A DNA stretch of 9,224 nt from an uncultured Sphingobium sp. GTDB lineage: Bacteria; Pseudomonadota; Alphaproteobacteria; Sphingomonadales; Sphingomonadaceae. Numbering within the stretch: the stretch's first letter is position 1; each line of letters starts with the position of its first letter. The notes below the pieces were generated by a model. It ran no database searches. It was not told the DNA's origin and saw nothing but the letters and a program-made list of their open reading frames with translations. The DNA is taken from NCBI GenBank assembly GCA_913773715.1, contig CAJYHD010000215.1, positions 1 through 9,224 on the forward strand, in the 5' to 3' direction. The translations under genes were made by a program, and so were the position numbers. Shown piece by piece: positions 1,094 to 9,224 of this stretch.

Positions 1094-1771
1094 ATGATGC
1101 TTCGCAAGCTGGCGATCTATGACATGGACCGCACGGTGACCTTCAGCGGTACCTACACAGGCTTTCTGATCCACGTGGCGCGCGCGATGGCGCCATGGCG
1201 GCTGGCGCTTTTCCCCTGCGTCGTCCTGCTGATGTTGGCCTATGTGCTGAAGCTGATAACCCGCCAGCGATTGAAGGAACTCAACCAGGCACTGATGATC
1301 GGCAGCAGTGTCGAGCGCGCGAAATTGATGCCACATATCGAAAGCTACGCCGACAAGGTGATGGCGACCAATGTCCGCAAGGGGGCGTTGGCGCAGATCG
1401 CGCAGGACCGGGCGGAGGGTTATACGCTGGTTCTCGCGACCGCTTCCTACCGCCTCTACGTCGAGCCGATCGCGCGGCGGCTGGGCTTCGACGCGGTGAT
1501 CGCGACCGATCATCTGAGCCAGGATCTGCGTTACGTCCGGGCGAAGATTGCGGGCGAAAATTGCTACGACACGGTCAAGCTGCGCATGATCAAGGCGTGG
1601 ATGGCGGCGGAGGCAATCGATCGCAGCCAGACCCATATCCGCGCCTATTCCGACCATGTGTCGGACGCGCCGATGCTAGAGTTCGCCGACATCCCGTTCG
1701 CTTCCAATCCGCACAAGCCGCTCGCCCGGCTTGCGCGGATGAACGGTTGGTCACGGGTGGATTGGCGCTAA
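1094..1771 (+). CDS. HAD-IB family phosphatase, possibly PgpC-like lipid phosphatase
   Basis: Predicted Mg2+-dependent phosphohydrolase of HAD subfamily IB, 225 residues. All four HAD motifs are visible: motif I DMDRT with nucleophile D10 and acid/base D12, motif II ATAS (T116), motif III lysine around K162, and motif IV YSDHVSDAP (D187, D191). A hydrophobic stretch at about 38-56 (ALFPCVVLLMLAYVLKLI) sits in the cap region, followed by a basic segment. E. coli PgpC (phosphatidylglycerophosphatase C), as I remember it, has a hydrophobic stretch in the same place, so the enzyme may touch the membrane. Two adjacent ATGs exist; the second (1097) has the better spacing from GGAA at 1085-1088. The gene is divergent from mlaE and its TAA overlaps the helicase TAG. 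Generic alternatives are a phosphoserine-phosphatase-like or CicA-like HAD. The HAD class is clear; the substrate is a guess. Confidence 0.85.
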   Translation: MMLRKLAIYDMDRTVTFSGTYTGFLIHVARAMAPWRLALFPCVVLLMLAYVLKLITRQRLKELNQALMIGSSVERAKLMPHIESYADKVMATNVRKGALAQIAQDRAEGYTLVLATASYRLYVEPIARRLGFDAVIATDHLSQDLRYVRAKIAGENCYDTVKLRMIKAWMAAEAIDRSQTHIRAYSDHVSDAPMLEFADIPFASNPHKPLARLARMNGWSRVDWR

Positions 1772-4185
1772 TCGACGCGCATCGCTTCGGCGACCAGCGC
1801 TTCGGCCTCGATCAATAGGGCATCGTCCGCCGCCGCCTGCGCCACCTGTTCGCGTCCGATCAGGATCAGGACGGGGAGGGAGAGGGGGCTGACCCGGTCG
1901 AGATCGACATGCAGCATGGTGGAGGCTGCGCGATCGATCAGGTCGCCCAGACGCCCGACGTCTGTCATGCGAGCGCGAGCGTCGGCCCAAGCCGCTTTGA
2001 GCAGCAGATGGTCGGGCTGATATTTGCGCAGCACATCATAGATGAGGTCGGTGGAGAAGGTCACCTGCCGCCTGGTCTTGCGCTTGCCGGGATGCTGCCG
2101 TTCGATCAGGCCCGATATCACCGCCACATCGCGGAAGGCACGCTTGAGCAAGCTCGACTGCTCGACCCACTCGACGAATTCATGATCGAGGATATCGGCG
2201 GAAAACAGGCTTTGCGGATCGGTCACCGGCTTCATGCCGTAGATCGCCAGCGCGTAATCGTTCGACACGAAACCGAGCGGCATCAGCCCCAGCGCATCCA
2301 TGCGGCGGGTCAGCAGCATGGCGAGCGACTGGTGTGCGTTCCACCCCTCAAAACTGTAGCAGACGAGATAGTGCCGCCCTTCATGCGGGAAGGTCTCGAT
2401 CAGCAGTTGTCCCGGTTCGGGGAGGGCGGAGCGCAATTTCTGCATCTCCAGCCATTCGCGCACATCCTCTGGAAAACGGTGCCATTCCTGTGGTTCGGCG
2501 AGGAAGTGGCGCACTCGCTCGGCAAGTCGCGTCGACATCGCCATACGCGTGCCGCCCCAACTGGGAATGCGCGCCTCCTTCGACGACGCCCGCACGACGA
2601 GGTCGGTCGTGTCCATCCGCACGACCTCCAACGCTGTACCTGCGAAAAAGAAGCTGTCTCCGGGCCGTAGGGTGGACGCGAAGCCTTCCTCGACCGTGCC
2701 CAGCTTGCGGCCGTTGGCGAAACGGACGGAGAGGGCGGGCTGATCGACGATGATACCGGCGTTCAGCCGGTGTTGCGCGATGAAGCGGGGATGCGACACG
2801 CGCCATGTGCCGTACTCATCCTGCGTCAGCCGCTTGAACCGGTCGTAGGCGCGCAGCGCATAGCCGCCGCCTTCGATGAAGTGCAGCACATGCGCAAAGC
2901 CGTCATCGGTCAGCGCGCTATAGGGAGTGGCGGACCGTACCTCCGCCAGCAGCTCCTCCTTGCGGAACGGCGCGGCGCAGGCGAGGCCCATGACATGCTG
3001 CGCCAGTACGTCGAGGCTGCCGGGACGGAAATCGTCGGCGTCGCGCTCGCCCGCATCCACGGCGTCCAGCGCAGCGCGCGCCTCCAGATATTCGAAGCGA
3101 TTGCCCGGGATCAGGATGCCGTCGCTCGGTTGATCGAGCCTGTGATTGGCGCGCCCGATCCGCTGGAGCAGGCGCGAACTCCCCTTGGGCGCCCCCATCT
3201 GGATCACGCAATCGACATTGCCCCAATCTACACCCAGGTCGAGCGAAGCGGTTGCGACCAGCGCGCGCAGCTTGCCCGCCGCCATCGCGCTTTCCACCTT
3301 GCGCCGCGCCTCGATTGACAGGCTACCATGATGAATGCCGATCGGCAGATTGTCGTCGTTGGCGCTCCAGAGTTCCTGAAAGATGAGTTCGGCCAACCCG
3401 CGCGTGTTGCAGAAGACTAGCGTTGTCTGCCGCCGTGCAATCTCCGCCATGACCTGCTTGGCGGCATATTTGCCCGAATGGCCGGACCAGGGGATGCGTC
3501 CTTCGGGGATGAGGATGGCGACGTTCGGCTCCGCGCCTTCTTCACCCATCACCGGGGTCACCGTGTCGATATCGCCATCGGGCGCGAGCCAAGCGCGGTA
3601 GGCATCGACATCGGCGACCGTGGCCGACAGCGCCACCCGGCGCAAACCGGGATTGATCGTCTGTAAGCGTGACATCGACAGGCTCAGCAGGTCGCCGCGT
3701 TTTTGCGTGGCGAAGGCGTGGACCTCATCGACGATAACCGTCCTTAGATTCGCGAACATCAGGAAACTATCGGGGTAGGACAGCAGCAACGACAGAGATT
3801 CGGGCGTGGTTAGGAGGATCTGCGGTGGTCGCGCCCGCTGCCGTGCCTTGCGATCGGAAGGCGTGTCGCCCGTGCGCGTTTCTACCTGGATCGGGAGGCC
3901 CATCTCCTCGATCGGTGTCAGCAGATTGCGACGGACATCGACAGCGAGCGCCTTCAGCGGCGAGACATAGAGGGTGTGCAGCCCTTCAGCTGGATTTTCG
4001 ATCAGGTCGGTCAGCGTCGGCAGGAACCCTGCAAGCGTCTTGCCCGCCCCCGTGGGCGCAACGAGCAGCGCATGGTTCCCGGCGCGCGCGGCCGTCAACA
4101 TGTCCATCTGGTGACGGCGCGGCATCCATCCGCGGCTCGCGAACCATCTGTCCAGCACGGGGGGGAGGGCGCTCATTCTCTCCAT
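1768..4185 (-). CDS. Lhr-type ligase-associated DEXH-box DNA helicase
   Basis: Superfamily 2 DNA helicase, 805 residues, of the short Lhr class often called ligase-associated DNA damage response DEXH helicase. It would translocate 3'-5' on single-stranded DNA using ATP and act in DNA repair (family knowledge). Motifs in order: Walker A PTGAGKT 44-50, TTPES 126-130, DEVH box 153-156, SAT 187-189, VFCNTRG 257-263, ATASLDLGVD 311-320 and motif VI QRIGRANHR 341-349. The remaining ~450 residues fit the winged-helix and Lhr-specific C-terminal domains. It lacks the long extension of ~1500-residue Lhr. Start is uncertain between ATG 4185 and ATG 4176 (Met4); GGAG lies only 3 bases before the second, and no clear Shine-Dalgarno precedes the first. 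The usual partner genes (exonuclease, ATP-dependent ligase, phosphoesterase) are not beside it: the downstream neighbour is convergent and the upstream one divergent. No symbol is assigned because naming is not uniform. Confidence 0.94.
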   Translation of the reverse strand: MERMSALPPVLDRWFASRGWMPRRHQMDMLTAARAGNHALLVAPTGAGKTLAGFLPTLTDLIENPAEGLHTLYVSPLKALAVDVRRNLLTPIEEMGLPIQVETRTGDTPSDRKARQRARPPQILLTTPESLSLLLSYPDSFLMFANLRTVIVDEVHAFATQKRGDLLSLSMSRLQTINPGLRRVALSATVADVDAYRAWLAPDGDIDTVTPVMGEEGAEPNVAILIPEGRIPWSGHSGKYAAKQVMAEIARRQTTLVFCNTRGLAELIFQELWSANDDNLPIGIHHGSLSIEARRKVESAMAAGKLRALVATASLDLGVDWGNVDCVIQMGAPKGSSRLLQRIGRANHRLDQPSDGILIPGNRFEYLEARAALDAVDAGERDADDFRPGSLDVLAQHVMGLACAAPFRKEELLAEVRSATPYSALTDDGFAHVLHFIEGGGYALRAYDRFKRLTQDEYGTWRVSHPRFIAQHRLNAGIIVDQPALSVRFANGRKLGTVEEGFASTLRPGDSFFFAGTALEVVRMDTTDLVVRASSKEARIPSWGGTRMAMSTRLAERVRHFLAEPQEWHRFPEDVREWLEMQKLRSALPEPGQLLIETFPHEGRHYLVCYSFEGWNAHQSLAMLLTRRMDALGLMPLGFVSNDYALAIYGMKPVTDPQSLFSADILDHEFVEWVEQSSLLKRAFRDVAVISGLIERQHPGKRKTRRQVTFSTDLIYDVLRKYQPDHLLLKAAWADARARMTDVGRLGDLIDRAASTMLHVDLDRVSPLSLPVLILIGREQVAQAAADDALLIEAEALVAEAMRVD

Positions 4186-4349
4186 GTAGGCAGCATGGCA
4201 GCTTCGTCAAAGCGTCTCCAGCCATTGGAATATAGCTGCGACAAGACGAAATATTATGTCGCGACCCTCTGGCCCTTTTCCCCGCTGTTGGATTACACTC
4301 GTGCTATCATGAGCGACGCATCAGACGTCGCCCCAAGCAGGAGACAGAC
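4186..4349. promoter_or_regulatory. Divergent promoter region between the helicase and the PLP-enzyme gene
   Basis: This 164-base gap separates divergent genes and contains an AT-rich patch at about 4225-4257 unlike the GC-rich surroundings. Weak plus-strand candidates are TTGGAA (4225-4230) with TATTAT (4252-4257, spacing 21, too long) and a lone TATCAT at 4305-4310. A short inverted repeat, GCGACG (4313-4318) and CGTCGC (4326-4331), lies between this -10-like box and the ribosome binding site; it could be an operator half-site pair or a small hairpin but may be chance. I see no SAM riboswitch-like conserved core. The promoter role is inferred from position. Confidence 0.4.
4339..4343 (+). 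promoter_or_regulatory. Shine-Dalgarno site of the PLP-enzyme gene
   Basis: AGGAG lies 6 bases before the ATG at 4350. It decides the start over the internal ATG at 4425 (Met26), which has no comparable site. The first ~30 residues look unconserved, so this start matters for the annotated N-terminus. Confidence 0.8.
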
Positions 4350-5675
4350 ATGACCGGCGAAACTGAAGCCGACCTGACCGGCGTTCCCGCAAGCGGCAAC
4401 CGCCGCCGCCCCAAGGCTCCTATCATGGAGATCGAAGGTCGGAAGTTGCGCCCCGCAACATTGATGATGGGCCATGGCTATGACCCGACGCTATCGGAAG
4501 GGTCGCTCAAGCCGCCGATCTTCCTTACCTCCACCTTCGCGTTCGAGAGCGCAGCTGCGGGCAAGCGCCATTTCGAAGGTGTGACCGGCATCCGTCCCGG
4601 TGGTGCGGAGGGCCTCGTCTATTCGCGCTTCAATGGTCCCAACCAGGAGATTTGCGAGGATCGCCTATCGGTGTGGGAAGAGGCGGAGGACGCGTTACTC
4701 TTTTCCAGCGGCATGTCGGCGATCGCGACGACGTTGCTCGCGCTGGTGCAACCGGGCGACGTCATCGTCCATAGCGCGCCGCTCTATGCAGCGACCGAAT
4801 CGCTGATCGGGCGCATCCTTGGCCGCTTCGGGGTGCAGTGGGTCGATTTCCCGGCGGGCGCGACCGAAGAGGATATCGGCACGGTGATCGAGAAGGCGAA
4901 GGGCATGGGCCGCGTTGCGCTCATCTATCTTGAAAGCCCGGCCAATCCCACGAACGTTCTGGTCGATCTCGACGCGGTTGTTGCGCGGCGCAACTCGCTG
5001 TTCGCGGACGAGGAGCATCAGCCGCCGGTCGCGATCGACAACACCTTCCTCGGTCCGCTGTGGCACAAGCCGATCAATCATGGCGCGGATCTCGTCATCT
5101 ACAGCCTCACCAAATATGCCGGCGGGCATAGCGATCTGGTCGCGGGCGGGGTGCTGGGGAGCAACGCGCTGATCAATTCGATCCGGCTGATGCGCAACAC
5201 GATCGGCACGATCCTCGACCCGCACAGCGCATGGATGCTGCTGCGCAGTTTGGAGACGCTGGAACTGCGGATGAGCCGGGCGGGTGAGAACGCCGCGAAG
5301 GTCTGTGCCTGGCTGCGCGATCAGCCGCAGGTGGAAAAGGTCGTCTATCTCGGTTTCCCGGAGACGGAGCGGCAGGCCGACATCTATCGCCGCCACTGTA
5401 CCGGGGCTGGTTCGACATTCTCTTTGTATCTGAGGGGCGGAGAGGCGGAGGCGTTCGCGTTCCTGGACGCGCTCAAGATCGCGAAGCTGGCGGTCAGCCT
5501 GGGCGGCACGGAAACGCTTGCCAGCCATCCTGCCGCGATGACGCATCTGTCCGTTCCCGCCGAGCGCAAGAAGGCGCTCGCCATCGGCGACAACATGGTC
5601 CGTATCTCGATCGGGTGCGAGGATGCGGACGACCTGATTGCCGACTTTGCGCAGGCGTTGCGACAGGTCGGCTAG
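4350..5675 (+). CDS. Cystathionine gamma-synthase-family PLP enzyme (trans-sulfuration / methionine gamma-lyase-like)
   Basis: Cytosolic fold-type I PLP enzyme of the Cys/Met metabolism family, 441 residues. The members make or cleave C-S bonds: cystathionine gamma-synthase, cystathionine beta- or gamma-lyase, O-acetylhomoserine sulfhydrylase and methionine gamma-lyase. Visible hallmarks are YSRFNGPNQ (91-99, phosphate contact from the neighbouring subunit), SSGMSAI (119-125, phosphate loop), the ring-stacking tyrosine Y146 in PLYAATE, D230 in AIDNTF (pyridine nitrogen), the Schiff-base lysine K255 in SLTKYAGGHSD, SLGGTETL (383-390) and the carboxylate-binding R418 in VRISIG. The Cys that follows the stacking Tyr by two in classical methionine gamma-lyases is Ala148 here, so it is not a textbook member of that group. 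Residues 1-30 form a polar, probably disordered extension. The TAG stop is followed directly by the ATG of the next gene, implying an operon with the 2-hydroxyacid dehydrogenase. Family call is firm; exact reaction is not decided by sequence. Confidence 0.93.
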   Translation: MTGETEADLTGVPASGNRRRPKAPIMEIEGRKLRPATLMMGHGYDPTLSEGSLKPPIFLTSTFAFESAAAGKRHFEGVTGIRPGGAEGLVYSRFNGPNQEICEDRLSVWEEAEDALLFSSGMSAIATTLLALVQPGDVIVHSAPLYAATESLIGRILGRFGVQWVDFPAGATEEDIGTVIEKAKGMGRVALIYLESPANPTNVLVDLDAVVARRNSLFADEEHQPPVAIDNTFLGPLWHKPINHGADLVIYSLTKYAGGHSDLVAGGVLGSNALINSIRLMRNTIGTILDPHSAWMLLRSLETLELRMSRAGENAAKVCAWLRDQPQVEKVVYLGFPETERQADIYRRHCTGAGSTFSLYLRGGEAEAFAFLDALKIAKLAVSLGGTETLASHPAAMTHLSVPAERKKALAIGDNMVRISIGCEDADDLIADFAQALRQVG

Positions 5676-6605
5676 ATGACGCGACCCCAACTGTTGGTGG
5701 GGCAGCCTCTGCTTGCTCCGCTTATCCCCATGCTTAAGCAGGGTCATGACGTCATGACCCTGTGGGAGCACCCTTCTCCTGAAAGGCTGGCGCAGGTGGA
5801 TGCTGTGGTGTGGGCAGGAGAGTTCCCGCTGGAGCGGGCGCTGCTGGACGCAATGGCCCGCCTTTCTCTCATCGCCTGCTTCACCGTGGGCTATGACGGC
5901 GTCGATCTAGACCTCGCGCGGGAGAGGGGTATCGCCGTGACCCATGCGGGCGACGCGAATGCGGAGGATGTGGCGGATCATGCCATTGGCCTGATGATCG
6001 CGCATCGCCGCTGGATAGTGGCGGGCGATCGGCATTTGCGGGGAGGGAAATGGACGATCGAAGCCAAGACTCGCACCCGGTCGATGGGCGGGGCGCGGCT
6101 TGGCATCGTCGGCATGGGCGCGATCGGTGTCGCTGCTGCGGAACGGGCGGTTGTGATGAAGATGCGGATCGGCTGGTGGGGACCGCGCGCCAAACCGCAG
6201 CTGGCGTGGCCCCGCGCGGACAGTCTCGAGGCGCTGGCTCGAGACAGCGACATCCTGCTCGTCGCGTGCAAGGCGGACGAGAGCAATCGCCATATGATCT
6301 CCGCGCCGGTCATGGATGCGCTTGGCCCGGACGGCTTGCTGGTCAACGTGGCGAGGGGCCAGCTTGTGGATGAAGACGCGCTCGTTGGGGCGCTCAAGGA
6401 TCGACGGTTGGGGGGCGCGGCGATCGATGTGTTCGATCCCGAACCTACTGATCCGGTAAAATGGGCAGACGTCCCCAATGTGGTGTTGACGCCGCATACA
6501 GGCGGCGCCACGCATGAGGCGGTGGCGCGTATGGCGCAGATGCTGATGGCGAACCTCACCGCGCACTTTACGGGGCAGCCGCTGCCGACCCCGGTGCGCG
6601 CCTAA
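5676..6605 (+). CDS. D-isomer-specific 2-hydroxyacid dehydrogenase (likely NADP(H)-preferring)
   Basis: Cytosolic NAD(P)H-dependent reductase of 2-oxo acids to D-2-hydroxyacids, 309 residues, of the glyoxylate/hydroxypyruvate reductase type. The Rossmann motif GMGAIG is at 146-151 and the catalytic set is complete: R227 (NVARGQLVDEDAL), E256 (DVFDPEP) and H274 (LTPHTGGATHE). At the end of the second beta strand, where NAD enzymes carry an acidic residue, I read GWWGPRAK (166-173) with R171 and no Asp/Glu. This points to NADP(H), by analogy with GRHPR-type enzymes. The ATG abuts the TAG of the upstream PLP-enzyme gene with no spacer and only a weak AGG upstream, suggesting translational coupling. 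The upstream lyase could supply a 2-oxo acid such as 2-oxobutyrate, but that link is inference. A perfect 24-bp palindrome fills codons 22-29. The TAA overlaps the stop of the convergent lipoprotein gene. Substrate is unknown. Confidence 0.92.
   Translation: MTRPQLLVGQPLLAPLIPMLKQGHDVMTLWEHPSPERLAQVDAVVWAGEFPLERALLDAMARLSLIACFTVGYDGVDLDLARERGIAVTHAGDANAEDVADHAIGLMIAHRRWIVAGDRHLRGGKWTIEAKTRTRSMGGARLGIVGMGAIGVAAAERAVVMKMRIGWWGPRAKPQLAWPRADSLEALARDSDILLVACKADESNRHMISAPVMDALGPDGLLVNVARGQLVDEDALVGALKDRRLGGAAIDVFDPEPTDPVKWADVPNVVLTPHTGGATHEAVARMAQMLMANLTAHFTGQPLPTPVRA
5731..5762. repeat. Two adjoining palindromes: 10 bp (5731-5740) and 24 bp (5739-5762)
   Basis: Positions 5739-5762 are a perfect 24-bp palindrome. 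The left arm is CAGGGTCATGAC and the right arm is its exact reverse complement, centred between 5750 and 5751. Immediately before it, and overlapping by two bases, TGCTTAAGCA (5731-5740) is a perfect 10-bp palindrome. The longer one exactly occupies codons 22-29 (QGHDVMTL) of the dehydrogenase gene. As RNA it could fold as a 10-bp stem with a 4-base loop. A role as an operator or translation-slowing hairpin is speculative; the palindrome itself is a direct observation. Confidence 0.75.
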
Positions 6606-7165
6606 TCGTCCTCGAGCGGGCCTTCCAGATCTTCTCGTTCACCGCCACAGCCTTTGAGCGTTCCTTCCGCAAAGGCGATCTGGACGCGGTCGGACCACAT
6701 CGCGTTGCTCATCCCGTCACTGCACGGGCCGGGCGTTATGCTCATACTGAAGCCATCGCCCGTGTAGCGGATGACGCTGCGGCCAACGCTGCGTGCGACC
6801 GAAAGCCGTAGCGTTTCCGTGCTTGGCCGTTCGAGCGATAGCTGGCCATGGCGCACCGTCGCCGCCCAGAATGGCTCGGTGCCGATCGCGCGATATTCGT
6901 CGGTTTGCGGTGTAGCAGCAGGTGGGGGTACAGCAGGGTTGTCCAGCTGTGATGTTCCACGTGAAACCAGAGGCTTATTAGCTGCCTTCGTTGATTTCGG
7001 CTCGATGCTCGTCTCGCTCACATTGCCGATCGGCACCGCAAGATTTCCGGGGCGCGTCTCCGAAGCCTCTATAGGCGCGTCCTCATTTTCGGCTCCGAGT
7101 TTTTGCGACCCGCTACAGGCAACGAGCAGCACCGCTACGATCGGCACGAAAATCCCAAGCCTCAC
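6602..7165 (-). CDS. Small lipoprotein with a C-terminal COG3650-like domain
   Basis: Predicted lipid-anchored periplasmic protein of 187 residues, function unknown. The start is GTG (7165-7163), supported by GAGGTG five bases upstream and by a 4-base GTGA overlap with the tag stop, so it is probably co-translated with tag. Residues 1-16 are a short hydrophobic signal ending in lipobox LVAC, with C17 the lipidated cysteine. Residues ~18-88 are a Pro/Ala/Ser/Thr/Glu-rich linker of low complexity. Residues ~89-175 form the conserved part, with GTEPFW (95-100), a cysteine in PCSDGMS (C148) and another in LKGC (C173). This pattern resembles the uncharacterised COG3650 group, and the two cysteines could form a disulfide. 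The tail is acidic (EDLEGPLEDD). The linker codons 67-71 carry a parS-like sequence. The TAG overlaps the stop of the convergent dehydrogenase gene. The COG3650 label is from memory of the EPFW pattern. Confidence 0.82.
   Translation of the reverse strand: MRLGIFVPIVAVLLVACSGSQKLGAENEDAPIEASETRPGNLAVPIGNVSETSIEPKSTKAANKPLVSRGTSQLDNPAVPPPAATPQTDEYRAIGTEPFWAATVRHGQLSLERPSTETLRLSVARSVGRSVIRYTGDGFSMSITPGPCSDGMSNAMWSDRVQIAFAEGTLKGCGGEREDLEGPLEDD
6953..6968. other. Candidate parS site (ParB/Spo0J-binding chromosome segregation sequence)
   Basis: TGTTCCACGTGAAACC differs from the widely conserved chromosomal parS TGTTTCACGTGAAACA at two positions: T to C at position 5, which is variable in the usual TGTTNCACGTGAAACA consensus, and the last base. 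The inner 14-mer GTTCCACGTGAAAC is a near-perfect palindrome around CACGTG. ParB binds such sites, spreads and loads SMC to organise and segregate the origin region (established). It lies inside the lipoprotein gene, encoding VSRGT (residues 67-71) in a non-conserved linker, where coding constraint is low. A chance match to GTTYCACGTGRAAC is expected about 1.4e-4 times in a window this size. Binding itself is inferred. Confidence 0.8.
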
Positions 7166-7725
7166 GCAGTCACCTCACCCCGGCGAAAACAGGTCGCAGC
7201 ATGATCGTTGACCATGCCGATGGCCTGCATCCACGCGTAAACGATCGTCGGTCCCACAAATTTGAAGCCGCGTGCCTTCAGGTCCTTCGATATGGCCGTC
7301 GAAAGGTCGGTCTGAGAAGGCACATGCGCGCCATCACCGGTGAGGGGCTGCCCATCGACAAACGCCCAGACATAATCGGCAAAATCTTCACCGGCCTCAC
7401 GCATCGCGCAATAGATGCGCGCGCCCCCAATCGTTGCTTCGATCTTTGCGCGCGCCCTGACGATGCCCGCATCCATCATCAACCGCTCGACGTCATTTGA
7501 ATCGAAAGCAGCCACGCGATCGGGATCGAATCCGGCAAAGGCGGCGCGAAACGCGTCCCGCTTGCGCAGGATCGTGATCCAGGACAGGCCCGCCTGGAAA
7601 CCTTCGAGCATCAGCGTTTCCCACAGGCTGCGCGAATCGCACTGTGGGACGCCCCATTCCTCGTCGTGATAGGCCTCGTAAAGCGGATCGCCCTGCGCCC
7701 ATGCACAGCGGGAGCGATCCGCCAT
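7162..7725 (-). CDS. tag: DNA-3-methyladenine glycosylase I
   Basis: Base-excision repair enzyme that removes 3-methyladenine from alkylated DNA. From the ATG at 7725-7723 it is 187 residues, the same length as E. coli Tag. The N-terminus RCAWAQGDPLYEAYHDEEWGVP matches the family. The four zinc ligands are all present: C7, H20, H175 and C179 (NDHAATC at 173-179). The base-recognition region LEGFQAGLSW supplies the conserved glutamate E41 and W49, matching Glu38 and Trp46 of E. coli Tag. In-frame upstream ATGs exist at 7734, 7743 and 7767. The last two would overlap gyrB, whose TGA is at 7738-7736. 7734 (190 residues) is a fair alternative because GGATG precedes it. The gene follows gyrB with only ~10 bases between and its TGA overlaps the GTG of the lipoprotein gene, so it looks like the middle gene of a gyrB-tag-lipoprotein unit. 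Nothing appears broken. Confidence 0.95.
   Translation of the reverse strand: MADRSRCAWAQGDPLYEAYHDEEWGVPQCDSRSLWETLMLEGFQAGLSWITILRKRDAFRAAFAGFDPDRVAAFDSNDVERLMMDAGIVRARAKIEATIGGARIYCAMREAGEDFADYVWAFVDGQPLTGDGAHVPSQTDLSTAISKDLKARGFKFVGPTIVYAWMQAIGMVNDHAATCFRRGEVTA
7171..7176 (-). promoter_or_regulatory. Shine-Dalgarno site that supports the lipoprotein GTG start
   Basis: On the minus strand GAGGTG stands five bases before the GTG at 7165-7163. It lies within the last codons of tag. It supports the unusual GTG start and suggests the lipoprotein is made from the tag transcript. Confidence 0.7.
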
Positions 7726-7735
7726 GACACCCATG

Positions 7736-9224
<1,489 letters not shown>

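Follow-up and report, generated by a model that had tools for sequence, protein, structure and literature searches.

A probable accessory parS site within a lipoprotein gene near gyrB in Sphingobium

Near gyrB in an uncultured Sphingobium sp., the linker of a lipoprotein gene carries a palindrome with the letters of a bacterial centromere, which raises the question of whether a DNA site, a peptide motif or neither is being maintained there. In the ParABS family, ParB loads at parS and spreads, and the resulting partition complex is responsible for moving the origin region and for SMC loading. The window, that is, the whole stretch of 9,224 nucleotides that was analysed, contains the following features around this site:

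6954 to 6967, no strand assigned: parS core palindrome GTTCCACGTGAAAC (minus strand: GTTTCACGTGGAAC), an exact match to GTTYCACGTGRAAC
6953 to 6967, minus strand: codons GTT TCA CGT GGA ACA, encoding V67 S68 R69 G70 T71 and overlapping the parS core (ORF and alignment)
6602 to 7165, minus strand: carrier gene, encoding a 187-residue lipoprotein-like protein (ORF, relatives and alignment A1)
7162 to 7767, minus strand: tag-like 3-methyladenine DNA glycosylase gene, upstream of the carrier gene and in the same direction (PF03352, E 3.1e-76)
7736 to 9223, minus strand: gyrB, C-terminal part, running off the window (PF00986, PF00204 and PF01751)

On sequence grounds, the 14-mer is very likely a real, accessory chromosomal parS site at which ParB would load, a prediction that draws on its observed sequence, position, reading frame and pattern of conservation, and on the company of parAB in a relative. 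Binding by ParB and a role in segregation are what we infer for it by analogy with known ParABS systems.

The core agrees with GTTYCACGTGRAAC at 14 of 14 bases, without mismatch, and has the same inner palindrome as the chromosomal parS of ParABS (16-mer TGTTNCACGTGAAACA). The 16-mer at 6953-6968 is TGTTCCACGTGAAACC. The sequence-only reading of this DNA had described it as a match to the parS consensus at all but the last base, unique in the window and lying in the linker of a lipoprotein gene near gyrB, with a chance expectation of about 1.4e-4. The letters and the single mismatch were confirmed, 6954-6967 is the sole core match in the window even with up to two mismatches permitted, and the gene context stands, with tag and gyrB adjacent to the carrier ORF. 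The expectation for an exact match was reproduced with equal base frequencies (1.4e-4) and falls to 8e-5 at 64% GC, the window having 63%. In 36 of the 41 exact copies found in lipoprotein genes (see below), the base before GTT on the coding strand is G, as opposed to T in the consensus, and the base after AAC is A, also in 36 of the 41. Conservation of the 16-mer does not include its outermost bases.

The carrier gene is the last of a gyrB-tag-lipoprotein run, and the site lies deep in its coding sequence, downstream of gyrB. Its product has 262 relatives, with PF27665 precomputed for most of the 120 listed, and is labelled by the sources as a COG3650 family or membrane-like protein; a Pfam-A scan of the lipoprotein itself gave no match at 1e-3. 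Cysteine C17 is invariant across all 20 rows of the lipoprotein alignment A1. With 15 of the 19 other rows in A1, the window protein shares only 42-50% identity. Compared with a Sphingobium MAG (genome G001, locus L001), the tag protein of the window is 77% identical and its gyrB product 91% identical.

As the sequence-only reading had proposed scanning for the motif genome-wide and comparing its positions with parAB, this was done on relatives, namely the 94 genomes of the genus of G001. The motif proved to be rare and clustered: exact copies were present in 94 of 94 genomes, at 297 places in total, whereas a reversed control pattern gave five matches in all. The chance expectation is about 0.04 exact matches per 4.5 Mb at 64% GC. 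Copies ranged from two to five per genome (two in 24 genomes, three in 32, four in 37 and five in one). Those of one genome mostly shared a contig and lay within tens of kb, many genomes having three copies spaced about 506 and 1,946 bp; in G042, G059, G065 and G092 they were on different contigs. In G001 all four copies are on one contig, together with parA and parB:

Core copy 1: 3' part of rsmG, just before parA
Core copy 2: further inside rsmG
Core copy 3: between mnmG and mnmE
Copy 4: orthologous lipoprotein gene, 21 kb from the core

The core gene order in G001 is rho, mnmE, mnmG, rsmG, parA and parB, with some genes interspersed; ParA is encoded there, and so is a ParB with ParB_N, HTH_ParB and ParB_C domains. 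Core copies were read at gene level in G001, plus two copies of G006. On the origin-proximal position that the sequence-only reading had thought probable, GC skew in G006 was calculated over 41 stretches of about 20 kb each; it switches sign at around 3.14 Mb, some 200 kb away from the parS group, in a signal that was weak and too noisy to locate oriC. Further outlying exact copies, at differing positions, were seen in G021, G068, G052, G026 and G073 (L191, L192, L193, L195 and L197).

The lipoprotein copy was then followed through orthologues. A family-wide search of 347 genomes found the lipoprotein, among the best ten candidates of each, in at least eight genomes at E <= 1e-20, six of them already seen in the genus, and the comparison was confined to the genus of G001 thereafter. 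There, 77 of the 94 genomes had a match at E <= 1e-8 and 67 were kept (E <= 2.2e-31); the 27 left out as orthologues comprised 17 without a match at 1e-8 and ten with a weak one (E 1.2e-15 or weaker). The set thus holds 68 rows, 67 genomes plus the window, each scored by the number of mismatches to the parS core in the best-matching 14-mer ahead of the conserved domain. The site was exact in 41 rows (40 genomes and the window), one base off in nine and missing in 18, which had three or more mismatches; no orthologue (0/68) stood at two. This two-peaked distribution is as expected from the presence and loss of a site. Among the nine is L171 of G093, in which the gene contains internal stops and the linker falls outside the open piece.

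The reading frame (frame 0) is common to all 41 exact copies, which lie 17-35 residues before the conserved domain, in differing linkers. A tree of the lipoprotein domain (67 rows, 94 columns), poorly resolved as it is, requires the site to have switched between exact and inexact at least 12 times. Because 18 of the 68 orthologues have no site within two mismatches and nine are one base off, the lipoprotein copy is to be regarded as accessory, or dispensable. Its distance to the nearest core copy was 14.1-61.7 kb, with a median of 21.1 kb, in the 37 genomes having both on one contig, and with that spread a fixed distance was rejected. The two are on separate contigs in G042, G065 and G092.

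Three genomes without a lipoprotein match (G041, G047 and G049) are informative about the location. No tag gene was found in the 20 kb around gyrB, the region searched for it in these genomes, and all three have an exact parS copy close to the end of the gyrB match, at a distance of about 130-140 bp. In G041 a catalase and ankyrin-repeat pair replaces tag and lipoprotein beside gyrB (L219 11308-13773), and the copy is intergenic, between the ankyrin-repeat gene and gyrB. Since an exact copy stands at the gyrB side in genomes without a lipoprotein match, parS next to gyrB is therefore independent of the lipoprotein. It is conceivable, if rather doubtful, that an outlying parS is kept 3' of gyrB because this place matters in itself, serving as a platform for ParB/SMC loading that is tied to the gyrase operon and would link ParB occupancy with gyrase supply, or with supercoiling ahead of SMC. 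If so, the gyrB-side copy in the three genomes lacking the lipoprotein would be a retention or regain selected for that place.

Could it instead be the peptide V[SP]R[EG]T that is conserved, perhaps for use in processing or interaction of the lipoprotein, with the DNA match as a by-product? The peptide is the best conserved stretch of the otherwise variable linker in A1. However, it is found in the open linker of 49 of the 68 rows, the other 19 not displaying it in an open frame (L171, unreadable there, is among them), and the exact copy also occurs beside gyrB in the three genomes just described. The codons speak against it as well. The 49 peptide rows, which share ancestry and were selected by a peptide pattern that is itself translated parS, use GTT in 49/49, TCA or CCA in 42/49, CGT in 48/49 and GAA or GGA in 49/49. 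Across the conserved domain of the genes that hold an exact copy, most of them are seldom used: GTT accounts for 12 of 247 Val, TCA for 8 of 232 Ser, CCA for 19 of 212 Pro, CGT for 23 of 336 Arg and GGA for 60 of 514 Gly, GAA being the exception (122 of 241 Glu). Between pairs of rows, codon identity within the motif is 1.0 for V, E and G, 0.96 for R, 0.75 for S and T and 0.71 for P; the 39 conserved degenerate columns used for comparison have a median of 0.555, and their top three reach 0.96. Moreover, exact copies differ among themselves at the Y (S or P) and the R (E or G) that parS leaves free, and both of these change the amino acid; variation confined to such positions is the reverse of protein constraint. 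The earlier suggestion that codons mostly other than the GC-rich choices fit selection for DNA over protein is thus supported by the retention of the otherwise rare GTT and CGT, and the linker comparison proposed with it found bases that persist among flanking residues that change.

The peptide is nevertheless favoured by the copies that are one base off. All eight of these in an open frame keep it through synonymous changes (TCC four times, in one clade, and TCG, CCG, CCC and CGC once each). They represent about five independent events on an ill-resolved tree, and only 25-30% of single changes would be expected to leave the amino acid as it is, pointing to some constraint on the peptide as well; either it became weakly useful, or drift towards GC-rich codons came first. 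Orthologues keeping the peptide and not the bases, which the sequence-only reading had named as evidence against itself, do therefore exist, being eight of the 49 with the peptide, each by one base, and the bases are kept in the others. Taken as the primary conserved element, the peptide is very unlikely. Another possibility is that the site is the operator of a different DNA-binding protein regulating the gyrB-tag-lipoprotein run. Palindromes are typical of operators, this site is one, and it stays near gyrB even where the intervening genes differ. Against this, the identical 14-mer occurs at rsmG-parA-parB and at mnmG/mnmE in G001, and a place downstream of gyrB and deep in coding sequence is no promoter position, so we give an operator a smaller chance still. 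The least credible reading is that of a coincidental match in a GC-rich window, or of a site left over in this lineage and no longer functional. The site has indeed been lost in related lineages, many of them without a further outlying copy among those listed; yet only about 1e-4 matches are expected per window, and 14 of 14 bases are intact at a linker position common to 40 genomes despite the low lipoprotein identity within A1 given above.

If the site is an accessory parS, as we favour, ParB would most likely load there as at the core copies and then spread, helping to build the partition complex and to load SMC. The main copies in Sphingobium-like bacteria would be those at mnmG/mnmE and rsmG-parA-parB, as read in G001, and the lipoprotein copy would be an outlier. 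The V[SP]R[EG]T of the linker would be the translation of this DNA word, which can persist in this place because the linker tolerates almost anything.

In having few copies per genome and a core beside parAB, rsmG and mnmG in the relative G001, the motif resembles other chromosomal parS. Unlike the core sites, copies of the type found in the window are outlying, lie inside a lipoprotein gene and are missing in many relatives. The copy in rsmG (gidB) of the same genomes is likewise translated in frame, giving V[SP]RET (FDVPRET in G001 and FDVSRET in G006); it belongs to an enzyme gene next to parA, whereas the lipoprotein copy is in an unrelated gene, farther off. A survey of parS sites has reportedly been made by Livny and colleagues. 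No paper on chromosomal parS in Sphingobium was found among the titles and abstract openings of the open-licence literature. A parS inside a gene is already known, and hence is not new as such. For Pseudomonas aeruginosa PAO1, nine of ten parS sites were predicted within coding sequences in a paper (PMC4368675) whose title states that a single parS near oriC is necessary and sufficient. The two cases have in common that the sites lie within genes, and what the Sphingobium copy adds is that it was followed base by base through 67 orthologues plus the window, which gives evidence for the DNA being kept over the protein.

The locus is a clear example of a conserved "protein motif", V[SP]R[EG]T, for which the best explanation is that it shadows a DNA site, and it warns that centromere DNA may lie behind short conserved peptides near parAB. 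Its exact, one-base-off and lost copies form a natural series for the study of the sequence tolerance of ParB and of the use of outlying parS.

Some minor observations concern the carrier gene and its surroundings. In L147 (G025:C26:9432-9932) the lipoprotein match has one in-frame stop and the parS copy is still exact. The one-base-off copy GTTTCCCGTGAAAC is common to five genomes (L155, L157, L159, L161 and L171); four of its carriers form one clade in the lipoprotein tree, from which L171 is absent, and four of the five (in G039, G075, G037 and G093) have stops within the lipoprotein match. On the other side of the carrier gene, at 1768-6605 of the window, a block made up of an Lhr-type helicase gene, a metC-like gene and a 2-hydroxyacid dehydrogenase gene is inverted with respect to L001, L219 and L223. 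The block is flanked by the lipoprotein/gyrB side and by the HAD/MlaE genes, both flanks being present in L219 and L223, and each of its ends falls at a point where two convergent genes overlap by 4 bases.
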